Positions 1-21,094 of a stretch of 46,190 bases of DNA are shown piece by piece. Positions within the stretch are counted from its first letter, which is position 1, and every line of letters begins with the position of its first letter. The stretch is from NCBI GenBank assembly GCA_029860345.1, contig JAOUBJ010000023.1:1-46190 (forward strand), written 5' to 3'. The position numbers were made by a program, and so were the translations under genes. The notes under the pieces are model-generated. The model saw only the letters and a list, made by a program, of their open reading frames with translations. It did no database searches and was not told the origin of the DNA. Source of the DNA: Candidatus Zixiibacteriota bacterium (GTDB lineage Bacteria > Zixibacteria > MSB-5A5 > GN15 > FEB-12).

Positions 1-1108
1 CGAATGTCGTCTTCTGATTGAAGTTCAATCGCGGATACCATTCCGCTCCCGCCTGCACAAAGAATTCCCCTTCGTGCCGTTCGGCAATCTTCCCGTGGTA
101 GAAAAATGTAAGAGTTGTCGTTGTCCCAGTCTCGGGTACCTCTTCAAGGAACAGATACAAACCATCGGATCGGTTTTTTTTCTTCTCCCATCGCTTGAAA
201 CGGAGAGACCGCCCCGATGAATCGAGAATGCTGTCGACCTCCAATTTCGGGTGCAGATTCAAGGCCACGATCTTTAGCGGAGCCAATACTTCGCATGATA
301 ACTCCGCCTGACAAACGCATTCTCCACGACTATCAATCGAGGTTGCGATCTCGTAATGAACCGGGTCCCACCGTATTCTGTTGACCTTGTGGTCACCAGC
401 GGCTTCCGCTACTGAAGGCGGAGAGTAGCTGCAGATTAACTCCAACCATTTCCGAAGGGGGAACAGCCCAAAGGTCTTGAAAAAACGGACTTCCTCCCTG
501 GCGAATGGATAGTATCGATAACAGACTCGTTCGGTACCGTCCGGTTCGACATTAACCAGCAAGTATGGTTCGACGGCAGGTTCTGTGAGACACTTCAGAG
601 CGCGGTAGATATTGCCCCGCCGCTCGTGATGAACCAATTGACTATGGGCCTTCCGAAAACCCTTTCTGGTGCCGGAGGCAACCGATGATTGAGACCGGGT
701 GCACGAATCCAGTATGAGCTGGTGGATTTGATGGCCGAACAGAAGCTCGGCTGATTCGATGGCACGATTGAGTGAGTCGGTCTCGAAAAATCTCAGCAGT
801 TGATCGCGCTCCAATGGCACCGACGGATAGAACTGGAAATTGCCCTTACCCTCAAAGTAGCCCCCAAAACAGAGCGGAGTGCCGTCGATTTCGACCGGCT
901 CGCAAAGATAGATCCGTCCGGAGTCCAGATACAGAGTCATATCCCGATGTTCGATGGTTAACCCGGACACCTCGTAGACAGCCGTGTCGTCAAGGGTCGG
1001 ATCATACATGATGTCAAAGGCCCGCTCAAGCTCCAAACCAGTCGAGGCCGATCCCGGTTGGACCAGGCCGGTCAGGCACAGTAATAGCGTGACTATGTGA
1101 ATCCTCAT
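1..1108 (-). CDS. Secreted protein, N-terminal part (possible peptidase MA/M1-like beta-domain)
   Basis: An open frame runs from an ATG at 1108 to the left edge without a stop, giving 369 residues of a longer protein. Residues 1-22 (MRIHIVTLLLCLTGLVQPGS) form a clear signal peptide, so the product is exported. The visible part is rich in beta-type sequence and reaches an FFVQAGAEWYPR stretch near the edge. That stretch resembles the region just before the catalytic domain in M1-like or peptidase-MA-like proteins, but the HExxH domain would lie outside the window. The start overlaps the stop of the upstream M48 protease gene as ATGA, so the two are probably cotranscribed and translationally coupled. 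A linked role in envelope proteolysis is possible. The family assignment is tentative; export and the reading frame are firm. Confidence 0.6.
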   Translation of the reverse strand, partial: MRIHIVTLLLCLTGLVQPGSASTGLELERAFDIMYDPTLDDTAVYEVSGLTIEHRDMTLYLDSGRIYLCEPVEIDGTPLCFGGYFEGKGNFQFYPSVPLERDQLLRFFETDSLNRAIESAELLFGHQIHQLILDSCTRSQSSVASGTRKGFRKAHSQLVHHERRGNIYRALKCLTEPAVEPYLLVNVEPDGTERVCYRYYPFAREEVRFFKTFGLFPLRKWLELICSYSPPSVAEAAGDHKVNRIRWDPVHYEIATSIDSRGECVCQAELSCEVLAPLKIVALNLHPKLEVDSILDSSGRSLRFKRWEKKKNRSDGLYLFLEEVPETGTTTTLTFFYHGKIAERHEGEFFVQAGAEWYPRLNFNQKTTF

Positions 1109-2484
1109 CGGCGGTAACCCCTGACAAACTCCGTGCGCTTCTTTAGAGCGGGATGAGTGTAGAACCAGAATTCAATCAGCACATGTGGATCGGGGTCGGA
1201 CAAGTTGTACACCGACAGTTTGTCAAAGGTGACGGCCGCGGTTTCACCGGAGACACCGGTTACATCCATACCGAACTTGTCGGATTGTCGCTCCATGTAC
1301 CGCGAGGCGGAATTGGTGATCGGTTGAAAGACAAAGTTGATTACGAGAACAAAGATCAACACCAGGGGCAAGGAGGCCATGTCCGACAATTTGTCGAAGC
1401 CCAGGCGGGTGCGAAACCTGTGTATGACGCCGTGAATGGTCTTATCCATCAACCATAAAGCGAACATGATAAAGATGATGGCCACTGCCAACCCCCACCA
1501 TAAATGGTTCATGAGATAGTGGCCCATCTCGTGACCCATGACATAGCGGATTTCATCGAGAGTGAAGTTTTCGATCATGGTGTCATAGAGCACGATCCGT
1601 TTGGTGCCGAACAAGCCGGTCACGTAGGCGTTGACTTTGGATGACTGTCTGGAGCCGTCCACCTGAAAAATATCGGAACCCTCAATCCCGGCCGATTCGG
1701 CCAGGGCGAGAATCTCTGCTTCAAGCTGCTTGTCTTTGAGAGGTTCAAACTTGTTGAACAAGGGTGCAACAAACACCGGAACAATGACGATCAATATCAC
1801 TACAAACGGTATCGCCCCCAGCGAAAAGGCCAGCCACCACCGCTTCATTTTGGACACCAGCCAATAGAAAAACCAAACAGGGATAATACCGACGATCAGC
1901 CCAAGCAAGAGGCCGAGCAGATTCTCACCCCACCATTGCATGAAAGTCTGGTTCAGAAACCCGTAGTTGTTCTCGACTATGAAACTGCGGTAGATAGTGA
2001 ACGGCAGATTGAGCATGTAGTCGACAAGCGAGATGAAGATATAGAAAACCCAAACGGCAAAGAACCTGAGCCTGATGCGACAGGCAAGATCGCGGAGCTT
2101 CGCAGACAGTCCGGTTAACAAAATGAGGGCCAGGGTACCGATGCCGATGAGGAAGCTTGCGAAACGCCAGATGTTCCTGAAACGCGAGTAACTAATCAGC
2201 TCTTCCTTGCGTTCCGGCGACATCGGGTATAGCGATTCCGGTGTCTCAGTCTTGTAGGGCAGGTCTGTCTTCAGACCTGCCGACAAAGGCGGGTCCACGC
2301 CGCGGCGCGCGGGCAAAGACGGGCCTGCGCTACTCTGTTGCAAAGAGTCAGCCTGTCGCTCGCCTGAAGAATCGTGGTCCGGACTGTCAGCGGCTGCTAT
2401 GTGGCAGAAGAGCAAGCAGGATGCGAGGGTCAGCAATGTCGCAATCACAAATCGTCTCTTGAGCACTCGGCGGGTGGTATTCAT
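1105..2484 (-). CDS. M48 family (Ste24/CAAX protease 1-like) membrane zinc metalloprotease
   Basis: The 459-residue protein has the full architecture of Ste24-type proteases: several hydrophobic segments, the zinc motif HEMGH (His318, Glu319, His322) and a downstream third ligand in MERQSDKFGMD (Glu398). It should cleave peptide bonds at the membrane; bacterial substrates of this subgroup are mostly unknown. Residues 1-32 form a signal peptide or first membrane segment ending at AAADS. A low-complexity linker (about residues 33-80) precedes the first conserved membrane region. Roughly residues 51-77 of this linker are encoded by a copy of a repeat that also lies in an intergenic region of this window (see 2254-2333). 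The gene overlaps the next gene by ATGA. The family call is firm; the physiological substrate is unknown. Confidence 0.9.
   Translation of the reverse strand: MNTTRRVLKRRFVIATLLTLASCLLFCHIAAADSPDHDSSGERQADSLQQSSAGPSLPARRGVDPPLSAGLKTDLPYKTETPESLYPMSPERKEELISYSRFRNIWRFASFLIGIGTLALILLTGLSAKLRDLACRIRLRFFAVWVFYIFISLVDYMLNLPFTIYRSFIVENNYGFLNQTFMQWWGENLLGLLLGLIVGIIPVWFFYWLVSKMKRWWLAFSLGAIPFVVILIVIVPVFVAPLFNKFEPLKDKQLEAEILALAESAGIEGSDIFQVDGSRQSSKVNAYVTGLFGTKRIVLYDTMIENFTLDEIRYVMGHEMGHYLMNHLWWGLAVAIIFIMFALWLMDKTIHGVIHRFRTRLGFDKLSDMASLPLVLIFVLVINFVFQPITNSASRYMERQSDKFGMDVTGVSGETAAVTFDKLSVYNLSDPDPHVLIEFWFYTHPALKKRTEFVRGYRR
2254..2333. repeat. Palindromic repeat inside the M48 protease reading frame
   Basis: The first part is a perfect hairpin with nine-base arms, GCAGGTCTG (2259-2267) and CAGACCTGC (2272-2280). 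The second part (2277-2332) matches, in inverted orientation and with only a few differences, the intergenic repeat at 11203-11259. Both share the core GGCGGGTCCACGCCGCGGCG. The element is bounded by GTAG and CTAC. It encodes part of the weakly conserved linker between the signal peptide and the first membrane region and keeps the frame open. Confidence 0.75.
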
Positions 2485-2598
2485 GGCGCGACTCTCCTAT
2501 CGATGTCTTCACCTCACCGGTAAGATACTCGTCGACATTCGTTGGACAAGGAAGAAATCTGCGCTGTGGCGACAACCTGTCCTGTGTACGCCGCGCTT

Positions 2599-2624
2599 GT
2601 CATTCCCGCGAAGGCGGGAATCCA
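2599..2624. repeat. Palindromic repeat, left flank of GIY-YIG gene
   Basis: The core ATTCCCGCGAAGGCGGGAAT is an inverted repeat with ATTCCC/GGGAAT ends and an eight-base centre, extended by GTC and CCA. It has the same form as the dRS3-type repeat described in Neisseria. It lies three bases beyond the stop codon of the GIY-YIG gene. A mirror-oriented relative is at 2924-2949. Confidence 0.85.
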
Positions 2625-2627
2625 TTC

Positions 2628-2914
2628 TTACATCAACTGAGGGTATAGATCGTCCCAATCGGTGTTCTTCGCTTCAATCACAAGAATCTTCCATGCCCGT
2701 CGCCATTTCATGATTTGCTTTTCGCGCGTTATAGCGCTGTGTATGTCGTCATGCACCTCATAGTAAACTAAGAGATGAACCTTGTACTTCTTGGTGAAAC
2801 CCTCGACGCTTCCGGTTTTGTGTTGGTAGATTCGACCGACAAGGTCGCTTGTCACCCCAGTGTACAGTGTACCGTGCTTTTACTGGTAAGGATGTAGACA
2901 GAGTACTGTGACAT
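2628..2914 (-). pseudogene. Single-domain GIY-YIG endonuclease gene with a one-base frameshift
   Basis: The open part (2855 to 2628) encodes LVGRIYQHKTGSVEGFTKKY and a tail with EKQIMKWRRAWK and NTDWDDLYPQL. These are typical of the small, about 95-residue stand-alone GIY-YIG (UPF0213/YhbQ-like) nucleases. The beginning is found upstream in another frame: ATG at 2914 gives MSQYSVYILTSK. After an A-run (T-run at 2878-2881 on the plus strand) the frame must shift by one base to continue as HGTLYTGVTSDL. One extra A would restore VYILTSKKHGTLYTG, the GIY...YIG core. The gene is therefore broken, or the A-run has a one-base assembly error. Its ends lie 3 and 9 bases from the two flanking palindromes, leaving no room for anything else. 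This suggests that gene and repeats form one unit. Confidence 0.85.
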
Positions 2915-2923
2915 AGTAGAAGA

Positions 2924-2949
2924 TGGACCCCCGCCTTCGCGGGGGTGAC
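2924..2949. repeat. Palindromic repeat, right flank of GIY-YIG gene
   Basis: The sequence TGGACCCCCGCCTTCGCGGG continues to GGGTGAC and is the inverted counterpart of 2599-2624 (GTCAttCCC...GGGaatCCA read from the other strand). It starts nine bases upstream of the reconstructed GIY-YIG start codon. It ends six bases from the stop codon of the cyclase gene. A nearly identical copy is at 4001-4026. Confidence 0.85.
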
Positions 2950-2955
2950 AGAAGC

Positions 2956-3915
2956 CTATGCGGTGGGATACTTGATATCTATTGTCACCTGCATGTTGTC
3001 CTTCACTTCATGACTCGCGAGCATCTTTGCCAAGGCATCATAGTCTATCTCGACAAAAGGTTGCCCAGCTTCTGTGTCAAACCTGTACGAATCGAAGTCA
3101 ACAAATGACACAAGGCCCTTCTTTTTGCGACCCGAGTGAACATGCGGGAAAGTAACCTTTACCTTGAGTTGAGCAGGATCCAACGGCTCTTTCTTTAGGT
3201 CGTAAGAGAACCGCTTTTGTCGTGCCTTGATCTCTTTGAGCGCAAGTTGGTCTGTCTCAGTTTCCCACTGTACCGCCGCCAGAGGCTTCTTGTACGAAGT
3301 GCCAACTCTCGTATTCTGCACCGTGTAGTGAATTGACATTGGTTTGTGTTCCGCGACTCCTTTAATGAAGACGGACTCTTTGGCGAACAGCTTTCTGGTG
3401 GAAGGATGTAGTAATTCAAGGCCGAATCCCTCATCAAATACTATACCGGAAGGCCTGGCGATGTCCATCAATCTGGACGCCACATTAAGAACAGTGCCGG
3501 AGTAGTCCAGGATCGTTCTTCCCGCGATCAACTTTGTAACGGGACCGCGGCACAGGCCTATGCCTATCTTATCCGGTACAGCAAAGTTGATCATCGGATC
3601 GTTCCTGCAGATTGTGTTAAACTTCTTGACAAGGGAAAGGCACCACTTAACGGTGTCCCGTGCACGGTCCTTTAGCGTCCATTGATCGTAGGGTACAACT
3701 ACCAACAGACCGTCTCCAGCCGGCTTGTAGTACGACAAATCAGGGATATACTCATCGATAATAGTCATGTAAACGCGTTTGATGAACATCGCTGTATCGG
3801 GCGATTCGACTCTCTTGCCAAACTCCGTAAAACTGCGGACGTCTATATTTGCAGCTATCACATGCTCCGACGCCCCTGTGGCCTTTTCGAGGAGTCTGCG
3901 GAATGTCTTGTGCAT
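2956..3915 (-). CDS. Class III adenylate/guanylate cyclase-domain protein
   Basis: The start chosen is ATG at 3915, because GGAGGG lies eight bases upstream; an ATG eight codons earlier (3939) has no such site. The protein has about 319 residues. Residues about 15-195 form one class III nucleotidyl cyclase catalytic domain. NIDVRSFTEF carries the first metal-binding Asp, KPAGDGLLVV the second, and IGLCRGPV then DYSGTVLNVASRLMDIARP match the conserved strand and the Asn/Arg transition-state region. The rest, about 110 residues, is not recognised and ends in a basic then acidic stretch. There is no membrane segment, so it is probably cytosolic. Whether it makes cAMP or cGMP, or is only a regulatory homologue, cannot be read from the sequence. 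It is a single gene with palindromes on both sides and no obvious operon partner. Confidence 0.8.
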   Translation of the reverse strand: MHKTFRRLLEKATGASEHVIAANIDVRSFTEFGKRVESPDTAMFIKRVYMTIIDEYIPDLSYYKPAGDGLLVVVPYDQWTLKDRARDTVKWCLSLVKKFNTICRNDPMINFAVPDKIGIGLCRGPVTKLIAGRTILDYSGTVLNVASRLMDIARPSGIVFDEGFGLELLHPSTRKLFAKESVFIKGVAEHKPMSIHYTVQNTRVGTSYKKPLAAVQWETETDQLALKEIKARQKRFSYDLKKEPLDPAQLKVKVTFPHVHSGRKKKGLVSFVDFDSYRFDTEAGQPFVEIDYDALAKMLASHEVKDNMQVTIDIKYPTA

Positions 3916-4153
3916 ACATGCACCCTCCATCTTAGTCACATTTGATCACCGATGCCGATTCAAAGGTAGGATGTGCCCTGCTGTTGCACAAGTGAAAAGA
4001 TGGACCCCCGCCTTCGCGGGGGTGACAGAGGGCTGCGGGGGTGATACCCATAAATGGGTATCTTACGCTTTGCACCCGGCGTTGGTCGCACCCTTCGACT
4101 GCGCTCAGGGTGACTGGAGTAACGCGCGAAGCGCGAAAGAACCCATTTATGGG
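3916..4153. repeat. Intergenic repeat cluster between cyclase and aldolase genes
   Basis: This gap holds several palindromes. 4001-4026 is a copy of the repeat at 2924-2949. 4043-4062 is the hairpin GATACCCATAAATGGGTATC. 4089-4114 is CACCCTTCGACTGCGCTCAG followed by GGTGAC, a family also present at 35930-35943 and, in part, at 13248, 15952 and 20990. 4141-4154 is a second ACCCATttATGGGT palindrome that overlaps the stop codon of the aldolase gene. The last could serve as part of a terminator for the aldolase transcript, but it has no clear T-run. Confidence 0.7.
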
Positions 4154-5212
4154 TTACGCCACCGTCACTTCATCGCACAGGTAGACATCCTGGATGGCAT
4201 TAAGCAACGCAACGCCGTCTTTCATCGGCTTCTGAAAGGCTTTGCGTCCGGAGATCAGACCCATGCCGCCGGCCCGTTTGTTGATGACAGCCGTGAGCAC
4301 TGCCTGGGCCAGATCCGACGAATCGGACCCGGTGGAAGCACCGCCTGAGTTGATCAATCCGGCCCGCCCCATGTAGCAGTTGGCCACCTGGTAGCGGGTG
4401 AGGTCGATGGGGTTGTCGCTGGACAGTTCGTCATAGACCTTTTTGTGCGTCTTGGCGAAACTGATAGCGTTGAAGCCGCCGTTACATTCGGGCAGTTTCT
4501 GTTTTATAATGTCGGCTTCGATGGTGACACCGAGATGGTTGGCCTGTCCGGTCATATCGGCTGCGGTGTGGTAGTCGGTGCCGTCCTTTTTGAAACCTGA
4601 GTTGCGAAGATAGCACCACAAGACCGTGAACATACCCAACTCGTGTGCTTGCGAAAAGGCCTCGGTGACTTCTGTAAGCTGCCGCATCGAGTTGTCCGAA
4701 CCGAAGTAAATCGTGGCGCCGACACCGACCGCGCCCATGTTGAAAGCGTTCTCGACCGAGGAGAACATCACCTGGTCATGCTTATTGGGATAGGTCATCA
4801 ATTCGTTGTGGTTCAGTTTCAGAATAAACGGAATCTTGTGGGCATACTTGCGGGCCACGGCACCGAGTACGCCGTAGGTCGAAGCTACGGCATTGCAGCC
4901 GCCCTCAATAGCCAACTCGACGATTTTCGCCGGGTCGAAATAATCCGGGTTGGGAGCAAACGATGCGCCGCCGGTGTGCTCGATGCCTTGATCCACCGGC
5001 AGAATCGAAAGGTATCCACTGCCGTTCATGCGACCGGTGGTGAACATCCAATTCAGTGAGCGCATCACGGCCGGGGTGCGATCCGACTGGGCCACGACAC
5101 GGTCTACAAAATCCGTACCCGGCAAGTGCAGTCGTTCCTTTGGTATCCCTTTGCACTTGTAGCTGAGTAGGCCCTTATCATCTCCTAAGTACTGCTCAAT
5201 CTTCGCAATCAT
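4154..5212 (-). CDS. fbaB: Class I fructose-bisphosphate aldolase, DhnA/FbaB type
   Basis: The 352-residue length equals that of the E. coli DhnA/FbaB family. It catalyses reversible cleavage of fructose 1,6-bisphosphate to dihydroxyacetone phosphate and glyceraldehyde 3-phosphate in glycolysis and gluconeogenesis. Family landmarks include [20 protein letters not shown] near residue 70, [10 protein letters not shown], the EADIIKQK segment with the probable Schiff-base lysine Lys237, and the C-terminal phosphate-binding region [15 protein letters not shown] and [12 protein letters not shown]. It is a Schiff-base enzyme, so no metal ligands are expected. The gene stands alone and is divergent from the ABC exporter genes. 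The start ATG at 5212 is preceded by AGGAGATAAGGAC. A firm call. Confidence 0.95.
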
Positions 5213-5403
5213 GTCCTTATCTCCTGAAAACTTGACATTCTATCCTGGCGCCAATAAAGAACGGTTCAAGACCAAACGCAACGTCAAAGGGGCAGCAAGC
5301 TGCCTTTTTTTCTCTGACCCCGTTTGACTGGTGCCCATGGCACAGTTATATTCGCCACAACGCAACCAAGTTAAGAAGTGAGCGTATCAAACGAACATAA
5401 GCC
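5213..5403. other. Divergent intergenic region with a nested hairpin
   Basis: The region separates the aldolase gene (leftward) from the ABC exporter (rightward). At 5283-5328 a nested structure is visible: an outer pair GTCAAAGGGG / CCCCGTTTGAC encloses GGCAGCAAGCTGCC followed by seven T. Read rightward, the inner hairpin plus T-run looks like a terminator, yet it lies upstream of both genes. It may be an attenuator or another dispersed repeat. No promoter close to consensus was recognised. Confidence 0.5.
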
Positions 5404-6297
5404 ATGATCAAAGCTGAAAACCTCACCAAGCGCTTCGGCGAAATCACCGCCGTCGATGACATCTCCTTTGAGATACACAAGGGAGAAGCGTTCGGGTTTC
5501 TCGGGCCGAACGGCGCGGGCAAATCCACGACGATAAACATGCTGGCCGGGGTGCTGGAACCCGATCGGGGCGGTATCTCGATCGATGGTGCTACCGATCC
5601 GACCCGGACACAGGTGCGGCGGTCACTCGGTATCGCGCCGCAAGCGTTGGCTTTATACGATGAGTTAACAGCCGATGAAAACCTGGCTTTCTTTGGACGG
5701 CTGTACGGTTTGTCGGGTAAAGCCTTGAGCGCACGAGCAGACTGGGCGCTTGAGTTGGTCGGGCTGACGGGGCGAAGGCGGGACCGTGTCAAAACATATT
5801 CGGGCGGGATGCAAAGACGTCTTAACCTGGCCTGCGGATTGGTACATGATCCACAAGTGCTGCTGCTCGATGAACCGACGGTGGGTGTGGACCCGCAGTC
5901 ACGTAATCTGATTTTTGAAAAAGTCAGCCAACTCAAAGCCGAGGGACGCACCGTTCTTTATACTACTCATTACATGGAAGAAGCCGAGCGGCTGTGCGAC
6001 CGAGTTGCCATAATCGACAACGGTCGTATTATGGCCGTCGACAGTGTTGAAAACCTGATCACCAACCACGGCGGACCCTCTTTCGTGAATGCTCAATTGT
6101 CGGCGCCTCCGGAGGAGACTGCAGGACTTCCGGGGACGCTCGACGGGCTGAACCTGAGAGTAGAAACAGACAGCCCCATGGATACAATTGCCGATTTGAG
6201 TGCCAAAGGTCAGTCCTTTGTCACTATGCGCATCGACCAACCGAATCTTGAGACGGTGTTTTTGAACCTAACCGGCAGAAAGCTGCGCGACCAATGA
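5404..6297 (+). CDS. ABC transporter ATP-binding protein (ABC-2/DrrA-like exporter)
   Basis: This 297-residue cytosolic ATPase energises an exporter together with the permease that follows. Walker A is GPNGAGKST (residues 34-42), the signature is YSGGMQRR (about 132-139), Walker B with catalytic Glu is LLLDEPTVGVD (about 153-163), and the H-loop is in TTHYMEEAERLCD. The last 80 residues form the accessory C-terminal domain usual in DrrA/NatA-like subunits. The stop codon overlaps the permease start (ATGA at 6294), so the two form one translational unit. The exported substrate (drug, lipid, polysaccharide or sodium) is not indicated. Confidence 0.93.
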   Translation: MIKAENLTKRFGEITAVDDISFEIHKGEAFGFLGPNGAGKSTTINMLAGVLEPDRGGISIDGATDPTRTQVRRSLGIAPQALALYDELTADENLAFFGRLYGLSGKALSARADWALELVGLTGRRRDRVKTYSGGMQRRLNLACGLVHDPQVLLLDEPTVGVDPQSRNLIFEKVSQLKAEGRTVLYTTHYMEEAERLCDRVAIIDNGRIMAVDSVENLITNHGGPSFVNAQLSAPPEETAGLPGTLDGLNLRVETDSPMDTIADLSAKGQSFVTMRIDQPNLETVFLNLTGRKLRDQ

Positions 6298-7586
6298 GAA
6301 CGCTGTTGATAATTGCCGCCAAAGACCTGCGCCTGCTCGCGCGGGATCGGTTCGGCCTGTTTTGGGTGCTGGCTTTCCCGCTTATGATGGCTTTGTTCTT
6401 CGGCGCCATATTCAGCGGCGGTTCGGGCAATCGTGCCGAGATGAAGATTGTAGTTGTAGATGAGGCGCAGTCGGAACAATCGGCGGCGTTTGCGGCTCGC
6501 CTGGACAGTTCTTCAGCTCTACGTGTTACTGTATCCCATGCCGATTCTGCCCGCTTATTGGTACGCACCGGCAAGGCGGTAGCTTACCTGATTGTTCACC
6601 CCGGTTTTGGTTCGCTTGAGAACATGTTTGCAGGAAACGGGACGACTCTCACCGTCGGAATTGATCCAGCCCGTAAGGCCGAAGGTGGATATCTGCAGGG
6701 TCTCTTGATGGAAGCCTGGTTTTCGATGATGCAGGATCGATTTTTCAACCCATCCAAGTCCCAGAGATTCCTCTCGAACGTTGTTGAGCAAATTGAGTCC
6801 GATACAAACATGAATGCGGGACAGCGCGAAGTGCTCACCGGGTTCTTTGGAGACCTCGAGCAGTTTATGGGCCAAGTCGACACCGGTGTCCTGGCCGGCG
6901 GCTCGGCGGCGGACAGTGGCGGCGGGGCGAGTACAGGCTTGGGACCAAAGATCGAGGTTGAAGAAGTAGTTCGTCAACAGAGCGGCCCGCGGTCATCCTG
7001 GGAAATCACTTTTCCACAGGCACTCATGTGGGCATTAATCGGGTGCACGGCCGCTTTCGCCATATCAATCGTGTCCGAGCACACCCGCGGCACACTTTTG
7101 CGATTGCGTCTGGCGCCGCTGTCGCGCGCCCACCTACTGGCCGGGAAAGGGCTGGCCTGCTTTTTGTTCTCGATAGCGGTTTGTTCTCTGTTATTACTGT
7201 TTGCCAAGTTGGTCTTCGGCATCAGTACGCCCGACCCGGTGCGACTGGCCTTAGCCGTAGTCGCCTGCGCCGGGTGTTTCACGGGCCTGATGATGCTGAT
7301 GAGCGTCCTCGGCAAGACCGAGCAAGCGGTGGCCGGAGCCGGCTGGGCAATCATGCTGGTAATGTCAATGACCGGTGGCGGTATGGTACCTCTTATGGCG
7401 ATGCCGAACTGGATGGTAACCATCAGCCATATCAGTCCGGTCAAATGGGGGATACTTGCCCTCGAAGGTGCGATCTGGCGCGGCTTTAGTTACAGTGAGA
7501 TGGCTCTGCCGCTGGGGGTTCTAATCGGTGTCGGGGTGGCCGCTTTTACTGTCGGCGCGGTGATCTTTCGGCGCGTGCATGGGTGA
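6294..7586 (+). CDS. ABC-2 type transporter permease
   Basis: The 430-residue permease has the ABC2_membrane_3 layout. One membrane segment lies near residues 20-42 (FGLFWVLAFPLMMALFFGAI). A long extracytoplasmic domain follows (about 45-235) with a Gly/Ser-rich stretch near 200-215. About five closely spaced membrane segments lie in the C-terminal half, from ALMWALIGCTAAFAISIVS onward, and it ends FRRVHG. It forms the membrane part of the exporter with the ATPase encoded just upstream, with overlapping genes. The substrate is unknown. There is no sign of truncation. Confidence 0.9.
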   Translation: MRTLLIIAAKDLRLLARDRFGLFWVLAFPLMMALFFGAIFSGGSGNRAEMKIVVVDEAQSEQSAAFAARLDSSSALRVTVSHADSARLLVRTGKAVAYLIVHPGFGSLENMFAGNGTTLTVGIDPARKAEGGYLQGLLMEAWFSMMQDRFFNPSKSQRFLSNVVEQIESDTNMNAGQREVLTGFFGDLEQFMGQVDTGVLAGGSAADSGGGASTGLGPKIEVEEVVRQQSGPRSSWEITFPQALMWALIGCTAAFAISIVSEHTRGTLLRLRLAPLSRAHLLAGKGLACFLFSIAVCSLLLLFAKLVFGISTPDPVRLALAVVACAGCFTGLMMLMSVLGKTEQAVAGAGWAIMLVMSMTGGGMVPLMAMPNWMVTISHISPVKWGILALEGAIWRGFSYSEMALPLGVLIGVGVAAFTVGAVIFRRVHG

Positions 7587-7633
7587 GATTGAACCTGCCG
7601 TGGCAGGAGCAGAGTCCGCCGCGGCGGACTGCC
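7587..7633. terminator. Convergent intergenic palindromes, possible two-way terminator
   Basis: Two palindromes lie between the converging permease and acetyltransferase genes: CCTGCCGTGGCAGG at 7594-7607 and the perfect 18-base AGTCCGCCGCGGCGGACT at 7613-7630. Neither has a T-run. The second ends in GCCCTAC, as do members of the GTAGGG repeat family elsewhere, so this may be a repeat that also ends transcription. Confidence 0.5.
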
Positions 7634-8215
7634 CTACGATTGTCGCTTTTCCCAATCCGTTCGAAATACCATGTAGATATAAGAGTGCACATCGCAGGTG
7701 TAATCCCGCATGTGCTCCGGGAAGCGATAAACATCCTCACCGATTCGTTTACCACCCACCGCTTCCTGCATCTTCTGCGACGCAACGTTGCTCTTGTTGG
7801 GATCACCCTGGACCGCCACACAGTCGGTGTGTGTGAATAAGTACTCCAACAGGCCTCGTTTGACTTCCACACCGTAGGCATTCCCCCAGTGCTCGGGAAG
7901 CAGTTTAACATCTGTGCGCGAAATACCCTTGTCGTCGGGCCGATACAGCCTGCATTCCCCGACTGGGGTGGCTGAGTCCTTCAATACTACAACCAGCAAT
8001 GACTCGTATTCGGATGGACTCTGGTCGGCGATTTGTTCGGCGATTTTTTCTCGCGATGTTTTCAGCCCGTTGGGAAAACCGACATTGGTCATCACCTGAG
8101 GATTCGTCCACAGGCTGTGATACATTTCGATGTCGGCCTGGGATGACAAAGCCTTGCGGATAAACAGCCGGTCGGTTTCGATGATTGCGTTGTGTTGGCC
8201 ATTATCGTCGGGCAT
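7634..8215 (-). CDS. GNAT family N-acetyltransferase (RimJ/RimL-like)
   Basis: The 193-residue protein opens with TDRLFIRKAL, the usual first strand of RimJ/RimL-type acetyltransferases. It continues with VVVLKDSATPVGECRLYRP and the acetyl-CoA-binding region LLPEHWGNAYGVEVKRGLL. A PNKSNVASQKMQEAVG segment corresponds to the conserved N..S....EK.GF motif. It should transfer an acetyl group from acetyl-CoA to an amine of a small molecule or protein N-terminus; the acceptor cannot be told. The gene stands alone, converges with the ABC permease and is followed by palindromes. The start ATG at 8215 is the only good candidate. Confidence 0.85.
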   Translation of the reverse strand: MPDDNGQHNAIIETDRLFIRKALSSQADIEMYHSLWTNPQVMTNVGFPNGLKTSREKIAEQIADQSPSEYESLLVVVLKDSATPVGECRLYRPDDKGISRTDVKLLPEHWGNAYGVEVKRGLLEYLFTHTDCVAVQGDPNKSNVASQKMQEAVGGKRIGEDVYRFPEHMRDYTCDVHSYIYMVFRTDWEKRQS

Positions 8216-8455
8216 GTCCTACGATAGGTCTTTGCCAAGGGAGTGTCAACCCCGACCTGCGAATAAGATGCTTGTCCACCGTCCCAAACAAGGTTTGAGA
8301 CGGCCACCCGCCGATGGCTGTCAGGCGAGTCACCTGACAGCACCTTCATCGCGAAGCACATCACCGTGTGATATTGAGGGTTTAGCAACAAGCCCCAAGG
8401 TCCGGGCCACCCGCCTTGGTCAGCGCGCGAAGTGCGAAAAAGTAGGCTAGCCTAC
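8216..8455. repeat. Intergenic repeats upstream of GNAT gene
   Basis: 8279-8332 contains CCCAAACAAGGTTTGAGACG, then GCCACCC and GGCTGTCAGGCGAGTC. An inverted copy with the same order of parts is at 11275-11335, and shorter copies are at 12261-12290 and 20652-20684. 8323-8340 is the small hairpin CAGGcgagtcaCCTG. A degenerate GGGCCACCCGCC stretch follows near 8402. No small gene was recognised here. Confidence 0.65.
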
Positions 8456-8482
8456 AAAAAAGGGGCCGCACAAGGCGACCCC
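8456..8482 (-). terminator. Rho-independent terminator of the DUF5916 gene
   Basis: Read on the minus strand, the sequence is GGGGTCGC, a short loop, GCGGCCCC and six T. The eight-base stem has one G-T wobble. It lies about 37 bases after the stop codon of the 816-residue protein gene. Confidence 0.8.
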
Positions 8483-8518
8483 ATCTGAGAGTCAGTTACT
8501 CCCATCGAAGTGGGGCTT

Positions 8519-10969
8519 CTATATGTTCAACCAGTAGCTCGCTTTCACCAAGAATATGTTCGAGGCGCCTTCAGAGAAGAAACGATCGAAATCGCGAGAC
8601 AGGTTAAGGTCATTGACCGTATCGTCGACTTCCGGACGCGAACGTGTCCAGACAAAATACAGCGTACTGCCCGGCAGGTACTCCCATCGCATCAGCAGCG
8701 TCGAGTTGAGCGACGAGTAATTGTAGTCACTATTGGGAGCATCAATACCACCATAATCACCGACAGCACTATACTGGTTGCCGCCTTCGTAGAGACGATA
8801 GTCCTCATAATCCAACCCGGCCAGCAAGCCGTTGGCCGACAACTGACACGAGAGATTCTTGTGCAGCATAAAACTGGCACTGACATTCAGTGTGACCCGT
8901 GTTTGATCGAGGTCGGCAAACAACGTTACCTCTTCGTTTGTAATGGAATCCACCGGGTTACCCACCCATCGTCTCTGGTCGTTGTCCTTCAGGATGTTGA
9001 CACCCAGGCCGTATTCCATATTGGCTGTAGGTCGGAATTCAACGCCGGTATAGTGCGCCCACCAGGATCCAAAGCGAGACTGACCACTGCCCGGATTGAG
9101 ACTGAAAGAGACTTTCTTACGACCGTCGGTATGCAGCGACGCCCACCAGCTCCATGACTTTGGGCGCTCCCAGAGTCCCATGCCGCGCGTTTCCCAATCG
9201 CTGTAATCGTCAATACTTTGGCTGAGCCCGCCGCCGAGACTCCAGTTGTTAATAAAATCCAGGTAGAAATTGTAATTCCAGCCTTTATCGATATTGTCGC
9301 GGGCATAATTCCAACCGGCGTAGATATTCATGTTGTGGTAGGTGTTACGGAAGACAAACCAGTCGTCCTGAGTGCGATACTGAAGCCAACCATAGAAGGA
9401 GCGTATATCGTTGCGGCTGGTGTACCCCATCCGGTTTATATACAGGTTCTGGTCCTTGACCGTCCCCCCGATGGAACCGCGCCAGTGTTTGCCGGCCGCT
9501 TTCTGAAGCTCGACCGCCATTCCAAAGCCTACCGGCTCACCGGAATTACGGCTGAACACGGTCTGGCCGCCGAATCCCCAGGTGCCGTTGTTGGTATAAA
9601 GTTGCCAGTCCAGGCCGCCGGTGGTGGCCGGGGTGCGTGTCTTCTGGCTGGTCGTGGTCACAAGGACACCGACGTATGAGTTCGACAGCAGATCCTGTTT
9701 GACCCGCAAGACGCTATAGTTGGCCGACGGCTCGACCACGCCGGTTCGTTCTTCACCGTCGACCGTCAGGTAATCGGCGCTCTCTTCCTTTGTTACGGCA
9801 TTGAGAAATCCCAGCGAGGTCCCGCCGGAGAGTTTACCGGTGATTTTTGCCGCACCGAGGATAGTCGCTGTTTCGGGATAGTCGGTGTACACATCAAGAT
9901 CGTCATCGTCAACGCCGCCGGTGATAGCTCGCCCGATACGGCGCGAATTCAACAACATGAATCGCGTACTGAACAGATCGGAGCCCTCGATAAAGAACGG
10001 ACGTTTCTCGCTGAAGAAAGTCTCGAACGGTGACAGGTCCAACACCGGACGGTCCAGTTCCACCTGTCCAAAGTCTGGATTAATCGTGGCGTCAAGAGTC
10101 AGGTTCGACGAAATACCATACTTCACATCGAAGCCGACATCACCCAGCATGTCCCGCCCGTTCGGGTTGCCAAGATGACTCGGCTCGGTCTGAAATTTGG
10201 ATACCGCGTATGGTAAAACCTGTAACTGACGAACCGGCTCAATACCGGTGATCCCTTCCAGATGCCCAAACTGCGATACCGACCCACCCTCGGTCGAGGG
10301 TGAGAACTCCCACCAGTCAACTTCGGCCTTGCGACTTATATATCGAGTGACATTTACACCCCAAACATGTTCGTTTTTCTTTGTGAATCTGAGATTATGA
10401 TACGGAATCTTGAATTCGGCCGCCCATCCCCATGGATGGATAGCCACTTCACCCTCCCAGATTCCATCCCAGGATTGATCCATGTTGACGTCATCGAACA
10501 TTCTGAAATCACGCTGGACGCCCGAAGCGTTCAGCCGAAACTCATACCCGGTTTGATGATCATGGTAGGGGTCCAGCCGGACTCTAACATAGTCGGCCTC
10601 CGACCATCGATCGCGCCTGACCATCTGCTGTTTAATTTTCTCCGGCTCTGAGTCGAAACACCAGAACGCAAAGTAAATAGCTTCGTCGTCATAAACCGTT
10701 GCCACCAGCGTTGACTCAGTTGCAGTTTCACCTTCGTCGGGTTCCATCTGCAGAAATCCCGTCACCTTTTCAATCTTGGCACTCTTCCAGATTTCATCAT
10801 CCAGTTTGCCGTCAATCGATGGAGCATGGGGATTGATTCGAACCGCCCGCATGATACGGACATCGTCATTTTTGTCTTTATCGGTCGGTTCTGTGTCGGA
10901 AAATACGGTGGTCGTGAAGAGTGCGCATAACAGCGCAGCGGTTGTACAGAGGAGAATCCAAGTTCTCAC
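8519..10969 (-). CDS. DUF5916 outer-membrane protein with N-terminal CBM9-like domain
   Basis: The 816-residue protein has a signal peptide (about residues 1-24, ending TTVFSDTE). A CBM9-like beta-sandwich follows (about 45-230), starting APSIDGKLDDEIWKSA and including LVATVYDDEAIYFAFWCFDS. The remainder (about 245-816) matches the DUF5916 pattern: SNLTLDATINPDFGQVELD, FSEKRPFFIEGSDLFSTRF, and many alternating amphipathic strands ending in a strand-like SYWLNI. The C-terminal part is probably a beta-barrel in the outer membrane. The N-terminal domain is usually thought to bind glycans; the real ligand of this family is not established. An AGGAGG site precedes the ATG, and a terminator follows the gene. 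It is a single-gene transcript. Confidence 0.88.
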   Translation of the reverse strand: MRTWILLCTTAALLCALFTTTVFSDTEPTDKDKNDDVRIMRAVRINPHAPSIDGKLDDEIWKSAKIEKVTGFLQMEPDEGETATESTLVATVYDDEAIYFAFWCFDSEPEKIKQQMVRRDRWSEADYVRVRLDPYHDHQTGYEFRLNASGVQRDFRMFDDVNMDQSWDGIWEGEVAIHPWGWAAEFKIPYHNLRFTKKNEHVWGVNVTRYISRKAEVDWWEFSPSTEGGSVSQFGHLEGITGIEPVRQLQVLPYAVSKFQTEPSHLGNPNGRDMLGDVGFDVKYGISSNLTLDATINPDFGQVELDRPVLDLSPFETFFSEKRPFFIEGSDLFSTRFMLLNSRRIGRAITGGVDDDDLDVYTDYPETATILGAAKITGKLSGGTSLGFLNAVTKEESADYLTVDGEERTGVVEPSANYSVLRVKQDLLSNSYVGVLVTTTSQKTRTPATTGGLDWQLYTNNGTWGFGGQTVFSRNSGEPVGFGMAVELQKAAGKHWRGSIGGTVKDQNLYINRMGYTSRNDIRSFYGWLQYRTQDDWFVFRNTYHNMNIYAGWNYARDNIDKGWNYNFYLDFINNWSLGGGLSQSIDDYSDWETRGMGLWERPKSWSWWASLHTDGRKKVSFSLNPGSGQSRFGSWWAHYTGVEFRPTANMEYGLGVNILKDNDQRRWVGNPVDSITNEEVTLFADLDQTRVTLNVSASFMLHKNLSCQLSANGLLAGLDYEDYRLYEGGNQYSAVGDYGGIDAPNSDYNYSSLNSTLLMRWEYLPGSTLYFVWTRSRPEVDDTVNDLNLSRDFDRFFSEGASNIFLVKASYWLNI

Positions 10970-11412
10970 GTCTTTTACCTCCTGTCAAGAAGTCTATCTC
11001 ACTATTGGACAGCACAACCCTGCGAAACAAATTGAAACCCTCTGACGCGTCCCTGGTCCTCGCTGTTGCGCATCGCAGCGGAGAACCTAGTAACAAATTA
11101 ACTAATCTACCCAAGTCATTACGCACCCATGATCGCATAGTTTCATTTCGGTTGGCGAAAAACTAAGAAATTAGTAATTAATTGAAATTTCGGACGTTTC
11201 TCGTAGGGTGGGTCCGTCTTCGCCTGCGCGCCGCGGCGTGGACCCGCCTTTGTCGGCAGCTAATGCTGTAAGACGACTCGCCTGACAGCCGGTGGGTGGC
11301 CGCCTCAAACCTTGTTTGGGGCGGGAATTCGCATGAACCACCCCCAAACCGAGTTTGAGGGTGCCACCCGAGGCCCAACACCACCTGGATTTACGGGCAG
11401 GTATGCCAAAAC
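10970..11412. repeat. Intergenic region with three repeat copies
   Basis: 10970-11190 is upstream of the DUF5916 gene and turns A/T-rich near 11165-11190; it probably holds that gene's promoter, but no clear boxes were found. 11203-11259 is a GTAGGGTGGGTCCGTC... repeat, the inverted relative of the copy inside the protease gene. 11275-11335 is the inverted relative of 8279-8332. 11338-11370 contains ACCCCCAAACCGAGTTTGAG then GGTGCCACCC, a family also at 12086-12115 and 20702-20731. No coding frame here looks real. Confidence 0.7.
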
Positions 11413-11435
11413 AAAAGCCCCCGACGGGGGGCTTT
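11413..11435 (-). terminator. Rho-independent terminator of the STAS gene
   Basis: On the minus strand AAAGCCCCCC, a short loop and GGGGGCTTTT form a strong hairpin ending in a T-run. It lies 28 bases beyond the STAS stop codon. Confidence 0.9.
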
Positions 11436-11462
11436 CGATAATCGCTTTGCTCGGGAACGCTG

Positions 11463-11798
11463 CTATGCGAACGACTGGAGCGCTTCGGTGCGGCTGTCGT
11501 AGTGCTCGAAAACACTGATCAGGCGGGTAATAGTCAGGATCGACTCGATTTTGGTGATATTGGCCAGTACCAGCCGGCCGCCCGAGTTTTTGACGGTTGT
11601 GAGGGCGGAAATCAGCATCCCCAGTCCGACAGAGTTTACCCAGTCGACTTTGGAGAGATCGACCACGATGTTCTTTTTGTTCTGGTTGATATACTCATGG
11701 AGCTTGCCGTGGAACATGGTAGTTTCTTCGCCGCCCATGATTTTGCCCGAGACATCCAGGATGACAATGTCGTTTTCCAAAGAATCATCAAACTTCAT
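11463..11798 (-). CDS. STAS-domain protein (anti-sigma factor antagonist-like)
   Basis: This 111-residue single STAS domain resembles SpoIIAA/RsbV. The sequence VDLSKVDWVNSVGLGMLISA covers the conserved loop, where the Ser in NSVGLG is in the position of the regulated phospho-serine. SGGRLVLANITKIESIL and the following helix complete the fold. Such proteins bind or release an anti-sigma factor kinase, or act in partner-switching modules. No kinase or phosphatase partner is nearby, so the partner must be encoded elsewhere. AGGAGAAGGGGAATC precedes the ATG, and a strong terminator follows, so it is a one-gene transcript. Confidence 0.9.
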   Translation of the reverse strand: MKFDDSLENDIVILDVSGKIMGGEETTMFHGKLHEYINQNKKNIVVDLSKVDWVNSVGLGMLISALTTVKNSGGRLVLANITKIESILTITRLISVFEHYDSRTEALQSFA

Positions 11799-12377
11799 CG
11801 AGATTCCCCTTCTCCTGTGGCTTTGCCACTATCCGTTAACTTTTCAGGCACCAGCCCGGGTCGAAGTGTCAAACAGGGACTGTGTGCATCCATTTACCTA
11901 ATTACTGACTTGAGAATGTAGGCTCTGCCGTTTCAAAACACAAGCTGTTTCTGAGGGGTGATAAATCACTTTTTGCGCTTCGCGCCTTTGAAACCACGCC
12001 TTGCGTTAAGTCGTGAGGTTGGGCTTTTCTCTTGTAGGGAGTCCGCGGTGGAAGATTAGCGGTTCTGCCGCTGTTGGTGTGGTGAGTGGCACCCTCAAAC
12101 CCGGTTTGGGGGTGATCTTCTCCCGTCTCCAAACCGTAGGTCGAAACCCCTGTGGTTTCGACATCACGCGCTTTGCGTGGTAGTTTAGTTCTGCCGGTCA
12201 GTTCGAGGACGGGCCCGCCCTACTAAAGAATGAAACCCGGGGCAAGTCCGGGCCACCCGCCGCCCCAAACAAGGTTTTAGACGGCCACCCATAGCAGTAG
12301 TCTTTCTCTTACTCTCGGCCCACCACGCCCAAATGAAATCGGGTTTCAATTAGGATAATTTCAACCACATTTTTCTC
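11799..12377. repeat. Long intergenic region with repeat copies
   Basis: Repeats recognised are 12086-12115 (GGCACCCTCAAACCCGGTTT then GGGGGTGAT), 12136-12162 (TAGGTCGAAACCCCTGTGGT then TTCGAC, a family also at 21037-21084), 12206-12222 (GACGGGCCCGCCCTAC) and 12261-12290 (GCCCCAAACAAGGTTTTAGA then CGGCCACCC). Between them are short near-palindromes such as GCGCTTCGCGC. I see no gene. The STAS promoter should lie at the left end. Confidence 0.65.
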
Positions 12378-12430
12378 TTGACCCCTCTGTCGATAACATA
12401 GTATAATTAGAACGAACGTTCGATTTAATT
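12378..12430 (+). promoter_or_regulatory. Sigma70-type promoter with overlapping palindromic operator of the TetR gene
   Basis: A -35 box TTGACC (12378-12383) and a perfect -10 box TATAAT (12402-12407) are spaced by 18 bases. Just downstream, covering the expected transcription start, is the perfect palindrome CGAACGTTCG (12413-12422). It sits at the centre of a 26-base imperfect palindrome (12405-12430), with AATTA at the left end and TAATT at the right end. The placement fits repression of the TetR-family gene by its own product. No second copy was noticed before bzdN. Confidence 0.75.
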
Positions 12431-12450
12431 TGACGATTGGACACAGAACC

Positions 12451-13062
12451 ATGCTACCGGCAATCAAAACCGCTAACGCACCGGCTCGACGAAACCGCCA
12501 GTACGAAAAACGACTGGCATCTATTCTCAAAGCAGCATCGCATGTGATCGCCCGCGATGGTTTCGAAGGCGCTTCGGTGCGCGATGTTGCCGCCCGTGCA
12601 AAGATCAATCTGTCAGGTATCTATTACTACTTCACCAACAAAGATGAAATGTTGTACGCATTACAGCATCACACGTTCTCGACGTTACACGATACGTTGG
12701 AGCAGCGGCTGCAATCGTGCGAGACAAATGAGGCTCGCCTGCGCGCCGTGGTCGACAACCATTTTGAGTTCTTTGTCGAAAACATGGATGACCTGAAAGT
12801 GTGTGTGCACGAAATGGAATCGCTGTCGGGCAAGTACTACCGTGAGGTGCTAAACGTCCGCCGCAAGTACTACCGTTTGGTACGCCAAGTGGTCGCTGAG
12901 AATCTCGACGGGCGCAGGCATGATGCCGATATGGCGGCGTTGTTCTTGTACGGTTCGCTCAACTGGGTCTACACCTGGTATGATGCCGACAAGAATTCAG
13001 ATATCAGTAAACTGTCCGATCAACTCTTGAAGATTTACTTGAATGGAATAAAGGTGTCGTGA
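12451..13062 (+). CDS. TetR/AcrR family transcriptional regulator
   Basis: The start chosen is ATG at 12451 (203 residues), with GGA ten bases upstream; a TTG seven codons earlier would lie at the edge of the operator. Residues about 15-62 form the TetR helix-turn-helix: ILKAASHVIARDGFEGASVR, then VAARAKINLSGIYYYFTNKD. The rest is an all-helical ligand and dimer domain with a pattern seen in regulators of fatty-acid or aromatic-acid catabolism, but the ligand cannot be read. It is the first plus-strand gene before the benzoyl-CoA reductase cluster, so an acyl-CoA or aromatic CoA-ester ligand is a reasonable inference. It is likely autoregulated through the palindrome at 12405-12430. Confidence 0.9.
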   Translation: MLPAIKTANAPARRNRQYEKRLASILKAASHVIARDGFEGASVRDVAARAKINLSGIYYYFTNKDEMLYALQHHTFSTLHDTLEQRLQSCETNEARLRAVVDNHFEFFVENMDDLKVCVHEMESLSGKYYREVLNVRRKYYRLVRQVVAENLDGRRHDADMAALFLYGSLNWVYTWYDADKNSDISKLSDQLLKIYLNGIKVS

Positions 13063-20593: not shown

Positions 20594-21094
20594 TAGTGAC
20601 ATGCCTCAACCTTGTCATGCCGGACTTGATCCGGCATCCAGTCTTCTCTTCGGGTGGCCGTCTCAAACCTTGTTTGGGACGGGAATCCTTCAGAAGAAGA
20701 ATCACCCCCAAAGAACTTTGAGGGTGCCACCCCTGATGGGGTCCGTTTGTATGACAGTATGAGGTAGGTCAGGACCCTTGTGGTCCTGACAATTGAGTCA
20801 GGTCCGTAAAGGACCTGACCTACAAGAGACCGGCCTTCGCCAGTATGACAAACGTTTTGCAGGTGCGTCTTGCTCCCCTCTTGAGAGGGGATTCAGGAGT
20901 GTGTTACTGGGATCATTAGAAGAAGAAACACACCCCGCCCTTCGGGCAGCCCTCTCAAGAGGGAAAAAGAACGGCAGCCCTACTGTCAGCCTGAGCGAAG
21001 TCGATGGGTTAAGTCGCGGAACTTGAATGGAGGACATAGGTCGAGACCCCTGCCCCGAAGGGGTCGCAATGCGAGGTTTCGACACCGGTAGATT
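20594..21094. repeat. Dense repeat cluster after bzdV
   Basis: Members recognised in order: 20618-20640 GTCATGCCGGACTTGATCCG then GCA; 20652-20684 (GGCCGTCTCAAACCTTGTTT then GGGACGGG); 20702-20731 (CACCCCCAAAGAACTTTGAG then GGTGCCACC); 20764-20823, a 60-base double palindrome (separate entry); 20871-20887 and 20946-20961, facing CCCCTCTTGAGAGGGG-like units; 20990-21004 of the 4089 family; 21037-21084 TAGGTCGAGACCCCT... GAGGTTTCGACA. No gene is seen. The block splits the aromatic-acid cluster, so the next genes probably have their own promoter. Confidence 0.75.
20764..20823. repeat. 60-base double-palindrome element, copy 1
   Basis: It starts GTAGGTCAGG and ends CCTGACCTAC. Each half is itself a hairpin (GTCAGGACCcttgtGGTCCTGAC and GTCAGGTCCgtaaaGGACCTGAC), separated by a six-base spacer. 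The element at 27607-27666 is the inverted copy, identical except in the spacer and of exactly the same length. Confidence 0.9.

Follow-up and report, generated by a model that had tools for sequence, protein, structure and literature searches.

A GTAG-tagged REP doublet is read in frame within an M48 protease gene of a Candidatus Zixiibacteriota lineage

Introduction

Intragenic REPs carrying a GTAG or CGTC tag have been catalogued, and most of them are dimers that encode 20-30 amino acids (Di Nocera et al. 2013, PMC3733652). The same work suggested flexible linkers as tolerated sites, found DNA repair genes among the targets, and noted that RPE-4 and RPE-6 carry the CGTC tag (PMC3733652). 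In studies of GTAG biochemistry, TnpA-REP from both E. coli and S. maltophilia was found to cleave in vitro at a CT adjoining the REP (PMC8266576).

Here we describe a repeat of this kind in a Candidatus Zixiibacteriota genome. The window, i.e., the whole stretch of DNA that was analysed, is a contig of 46,190 nt (C23) belonging to a 4.76-Mb draft genome of 35 contigs (99.3% complete, 0.4% contamination). An earlier note, made from the sequence of this contig, had claimed that about 27 codons in the linker of an M48 protease gene derive from a genomic repeat. Our results make it very probable that a REP doublet belonging to a family expanded in this lineage was inserted in frame in that linker, adding ~27 residues that the protein tolerated.

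Results

A repeat copy within the protease gene

The features of the protease gene and of the repeat are as follows:

1105..2484, minus strand: gene encoding a membrane metalloprotease of the M48 (CAAX-prenyl-protease-like) type, 459 aa (ORF list, translation, Pfam)
2242..2397, minus strand: predicted disordered linker with the insert, residues 30-81 (AlphaFold2 pLDDT), varying in length and sequence among relatives
2254..2333, plus strand: complete copy of an 80-nt REP doublet, GTAG...CTAC, in frame; its minus strand encodes residues 51-77, which the open frame predicts to be SSAGPSLPARRGVDPPLSAGLKTDLPY
2254..2281, plus strand: module A, a simple 28-nt REP, GTAG + GGCAGGTCTG-TCTT-CAGACCTGCC, with 0 mismatches to the family pattern
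2282..2287, plus strand: 6-nt spacer GACAAA between both REPs (alignment of doublets)
2288..2333, minus strand: module B, an inverted REP whose loop is enlarged by ~18 nt (CCTGCGCGCCGCGGCGTG); it matches the family consensus at 87% identity
11203..11259, minus strand: partial intergenic copy, comprising module B and 11 nt of the spacer and module A end (alignment, genome search)

The full protease copy (2254-2333, 80 nt) reads GTAGGGCAGGTCTGTCTTCAGACCTGCC-GACAAA-GGCGGGTCCACGCCGCGGCGCGCGGGCAAAGACGGGCCTGCGCTAC. Module B was delimited by aligning copies and by comparison with the REPs beside a RAYT gene (see below). Read on the opposite strand it is GTAG-GGCGGGTCCGTCTTCG-[CCTGCGCGCCGCGGCGTG]-AACCCGCC, i.e., a simple REP with ~18 extra nt in its loop, and removal of the loop leaves GTAGGGCGGGTCCGTCTTCGAACCCGCC, a simple REP of which there are many exact copies. 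The inverted relative that the earlier note had placed at 11203-11259 is indeed there, pairing with 2277-2333 over 57 nt at 89% complementarity, and the ~27 codons attributed to a genomic repeat correspond to the 80-nt copy. On the plus strand, the protease copy folds as a single long hairpin.

The enzyme itself is readily recognized (Peptidase_M48, E 2e-32; Peptidase_M48_N, E 7e-24), and the closest named orthologues come from Candidatus Zixiibacteriota metagenome bins. The M48_N match starts at residue 82, placing the REP-encoded residues upstream of it, and AlphaFold2 predicted the enzyme part with confidence (mean pLDDT of 86). Values of pLDDT fell below 50 at residues 30-59, 61-64, and 66-81, the insert (51-77) lying within this region, and a helix of the signal-peptide type was predicted upstream of it. 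The insert falls in a linker that separates the signal peptide from the membrane domain and is predicted to be disordered; the earlier note had likewise placed it ahead of the first conserved membrane segment, at a site tolerant of insertions.

A position so near the N-terminus raises the question of whether the repeat is translated at all, since many N-terminal intragenic REPs prove to be extragenic owing to misannotated starts (Di Nocera et al. 2013, PMC3733652). If the true start lay downstream, the insert would occupy the 5' untranslated region, and the stretch preceding the insert, whose hexamer coding score is near zero, is in keeping with this. Against it, inspection of the sequence shows an AGGAG motif a few bases 5' of the protease ATG, followed by the frame with its predicted signal-peptide-like helix; relatives whose N-termini are readable have a hydrophobic leader and a linker ahead of YPMSPER; and the first methionine past the insert, M88, falls within that conserved motif. 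We therefore regard an untranslated insert as improbable and retain the in-frame reading.

Repeats are common causes of misassembly in draft genomes, and a repeat that had fused unrelated contigs, or an error of binning, could mimic an insertion. However, both sides of the repeat belong to one open frame having a signal peptide and a full-length match to orthologues, the copy carries private substitutions relative to other doublets, and the completeness and contamination values of the assembly (given above) also speak against an artefact, which we consider highly improbable.

A REP doublet family multiplied in one lineage

The recurrence of the repeat greatly exceeds what chance would give. 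A 110-base query found 46 places in its own genome, most with E <1e-9. When the genome was searched with a 34-nt pattern for the looped core of the larger half (<=3 mismatches), 137 matches were obtained, compared to 0 for the reversed-pattern control. A degenerate 28-nt pattern (GTAG + 24-nt palindrome, both forms, <=2 mismatches) yielded 80 copies, again with 0 in the control. Aligned copies of the family end in GTAG on one side and CTAC on the other, and they include 16 distinct inverted doublets of 79-87 nt whose ends are GTAG and CTAC or close variants. When folded, the doublet consensus forms two hairpins (z = -5.8), and both tags stay unpaired. The repeat is, then, a REP doublet (REPIN/BIME) in which two GTAG-tagged palindromes stand head to head and one loop is enlarged. 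It shares with GTAG-REPs and REPINs a dispersed, high copy number, mostly between genes, the GTAG at the foot of the palindrome, the inverted doublets, and a RAYT flanked by matching REPs. Immediately 5' of GTAG in the looped half, TCTT occurred in 16 of 85 copies, compared to 0.4 expected, which points to an insertion preference. An Rfam scan of positions 1-13000 of the window and a search of plasmids for copies of the doublet family returned no match.

In a comparison across the family, the looped core was found 135 times in this genome and once each in two other genomes of the family (G005 and G006) and was absent from the other 51 of 53 family genomes. This near-absence indicates that the expansion is private to the lineage. 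The 24-nt repeat core had no match in a collection of 84,980 species, which may omit the source genome itself.

Orthologues of the protease tell a similar story. The earlier note had proposed aligning orthologues and named the same residues in distant genomes as the finding that would speak against an insertion. Among members of the genus and family, matches began at query residues 55-83, mostly 74-83, and relatives with a readable N-terminus showed a hydrophobic leader, then an unrelated Ser/Thr/Asp-rich linker, and then YPMSPER. No REP-encoded residues were found in these readable linkers. The nearest relatives compared share about 80% protein identity at most, and the linker of the window protease is the longest among the genus members compared. 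With the flanks of the insert joined and compared to G001-G003, the best in-frame join was obtained with G003 (81 nt, ACAGAAGACYGAG), which is suggestive but not significant, the score being equalled by 272 of 2000 codon-shuffled linkers; a net 84 nt, counted from C|T to C|T either side of the doublet, is in frame as well.

These data also bear on the reverse history, in which the linker is ancestral and its likeness to the repeat is due to chance, or the linker was the source of the repeat. We found no point in its favor: there are 135 copies here, whereas 51 of the 53 family genomes have none, the orthologues do not have the segment, and the protease copy is among the more diverged members of the family, i.e., not source-like. 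The probability of this history is close to negligible, and insertion into a pre-existing linker is the reading that we keep.

Other genes interrupted in frame

The coding fraction of the window is roughly 0.82, so random insertion would mostly strike genes. We surveyed 111 of the 137 distinct looped copies together with 84 simple copies having flanks (the two sets overlap in doublets), looking for frames that continue across the copy and have coding signal to either side of it, as judged by a simple hexamer score. Among the surveyed copies, only three genes were interrupted in frame: the M48 protease and the two listed below. The earlier note had proposed a search for further genes containing the repeat. 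All three copies lie in linkers or loops.

C2:301178-302050 (L264): RecA/ImuA-like gene (Pfam RecA), with a looped REP read as SCKAGPSSPARRGVNPP in the same frame as in M48
C3:257030-257725 (L326): ACT-domain gene (NCBIfam PRK00194), whose simple REP reads KAGSKTDPPY

Orthologues of the RecA/ImuA-like protein in G003-G005 are without the REP segment. In the ACT-domain gene, the REP is located in the linker that joins an N-terminal segment to the ACT domain, and relatives match either side of this linker but mostly do not match across it. Frames at four other loci (the formyltransferase locus L232, L238, L026, and L183) were rejected, as the coding signal or Pfam match either began after the repeat or was absent.

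Some further observations were made on these two genes. The RecA/ImuA-like gene remains open for 410 codons despite its looped REP and in-frame stretches resembling three other repeat families (CHSREGGNP, HPSTALRVTG, and GATQGRTLREEN), and its orthologue in G003 has an insertion of its own at a different place. The linker of the ACT-domain gene includes a second palindrome that is also read in frame.

Repeat-supplied linker peptides thus occur in three unrelated genes, one of them struck by several repeat families. Conceivably, an active REP/RAYT system supplies new in-frame linker peptides repeatedly and the M48 insert is already kept as protein, although we hold this to be rather unlikely. 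Another reading, in which the REP peptide was co-opted, came under purifying selection, and adds to the function of the linker, is unlikely. In its favor, four of the six sites at which the protease copy differs from the doublet consensus are third codon positions, whereas other doublets placed in the same virtual frame show 59/43/43 differences at positions 1/2/3, i.e., no third-position excess. However, six changes are too few (P ~0.1 for at least four of six at third positions), relatives manage with unrelated linkers, and the segment is predicted to be disordered. In the reading that we prefer, the added residues would be a neutral passenger of the protease.

RAYT genes and mobilization

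Five Y1_Tnp genes are present in the genome, four of which score above the NCBIfam cut-off for REP-associated tyrosine transposases and the fifth just below it:

C2:378274, C19:54158, C6:46500, C10:19117, and C3:277318 (L080-L084): the five RAYT-like genes, every one with a repeat family of its own at its flanks

The gene at C6:46500-46793 (REP_Tyr_transpos, NF047646; 156 bits vs. a cut-off of 80, E 6e-46) is bracketed by REPs identical to the simple form (C6:46295-46322 and 47017-47044), further REPs lie a short way outward, and an HFH motif and a tyrosine in YVHINPVKHGL can be recognized by eye in its product. The other four are edged by different repeats, three of which resemble families that the window or the RecA-like gene also contains. 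Within the window, the repeats at 20764/27607 and at 8276/11336/12257/20655 resemble the families beside C2:378274 and C3:277318.

Judging from these brackets, the RAYT at C6:46500-46793 is probably the mobilizing enzyme of the REP family, and by analogy we infer that it moved the M48 copy. Cleavage by TnpA-REP at CT (PMC8266576) agrees with the TC|TT-GTAG context, and movement of the element would have proceeded by single-stranded cleavage at CT dinucleotides. Gene conversion could alternatively have spread copies.

A palindrome-bracketed GIY-YIG gene next to the protease gene

Adjoining the protease gene is a frameshifted GIY-YIG gene (2637-2885, minus strand), flanked at 2598-2625 and 2923-2950 by inverted copies of the palindrome TCAyyCCCGCGAAGGCGGGrrTCCA. 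An intact paralogue with matching brackets lies at C15:137580-137864. Within the order, 17 of 29 related GIY-YIG genes had strong inverted repeats in their two flanks, compared to 1 of 29 M48 control genes. The bracketing palindrome of these small, UPF0213-like nuclease genes has the form TGTCAyyCC-stem-GAA-stem-GGrrTCCA, its stem varying between genomes. The arrangement resembles that of RAYT and REP, with a GIY-YIG nuclease replacing the RAYT; we found no description of palindrome-bracketed GIY-YIG genes in the literature searched.

Discussion

Taken together, the observations fit a simple sequence of events. A REP doublet family multiplied in this one Zixibacteriota lineage, and once the lineage had separated from the relatives sequenced in its genus, a doublet very probably entered the M48 protease gene. 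The site is a poorly conserved linker, predicted to be disordered, that joins the signal peptide to the membrane domain; since the length of the insert kept the reading frame, the protein would have gained ~27 residues and tolerated them. The locus is a clear example of selfish repeat turned into protein sequence, with the family, its likely mobilizer, and the interrupted gene all in one genome. It adds an uncultured candidate phylum to the range of intragenic GTAG REPs, and it points to strong filtering of such insertions, as only three genes were struck among the copies surveyed, all in flexible regions, in a genome whose window is about four-fifths coding.

We found no treatment of Candidatus Zixiibacteriota in the catalogue of intragenic REPs (PMC3733652) and no report of such insertions from this phylum in the literature searched. 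Nevertheless, the likeness to that catalogue is close: the repeat has the GTAG tag, opposed dimers, a cognate RAYT (REPtron), and 20-30 residues in frame, and it shares the tolerance of flexible linkers and the tagging of DNA repair genes, here represented by the RecA-like case. It differs in the 18 extra nt in the loop of one doublet half and in its host protein, an M48 protease. As the M48 and RecA-like cases fit PMC3733652 so closely, the kind of event has already been described and is here seen in another phylum. Like REPINs (Bertels and Rainey 2011, PMC3116915), the repeat is an inverted doublet unit with one or two hairpins, many copies, and a RAYT, but REPINs were described as extragenic (PMC3116915), whereas the protease copy lies within a gene. 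The comparison with Rickettsia palindromic elements, drawn in the earlier note, holds for the outcome, in that palindromic repeats lie in frame inside functional genes (here the M48, RecA-like, and ACT genes) and became part of proteins. It does not extend to family membership: the repeat ends in GTAG/CTAC rather than carrying the CGTC of RPE-4 and RPE-6, and it is a REP doublet with a cognate RAYT. Because the tag differs and a RAYT is present, the element is better named an intragenic GTAG-REP doublet.
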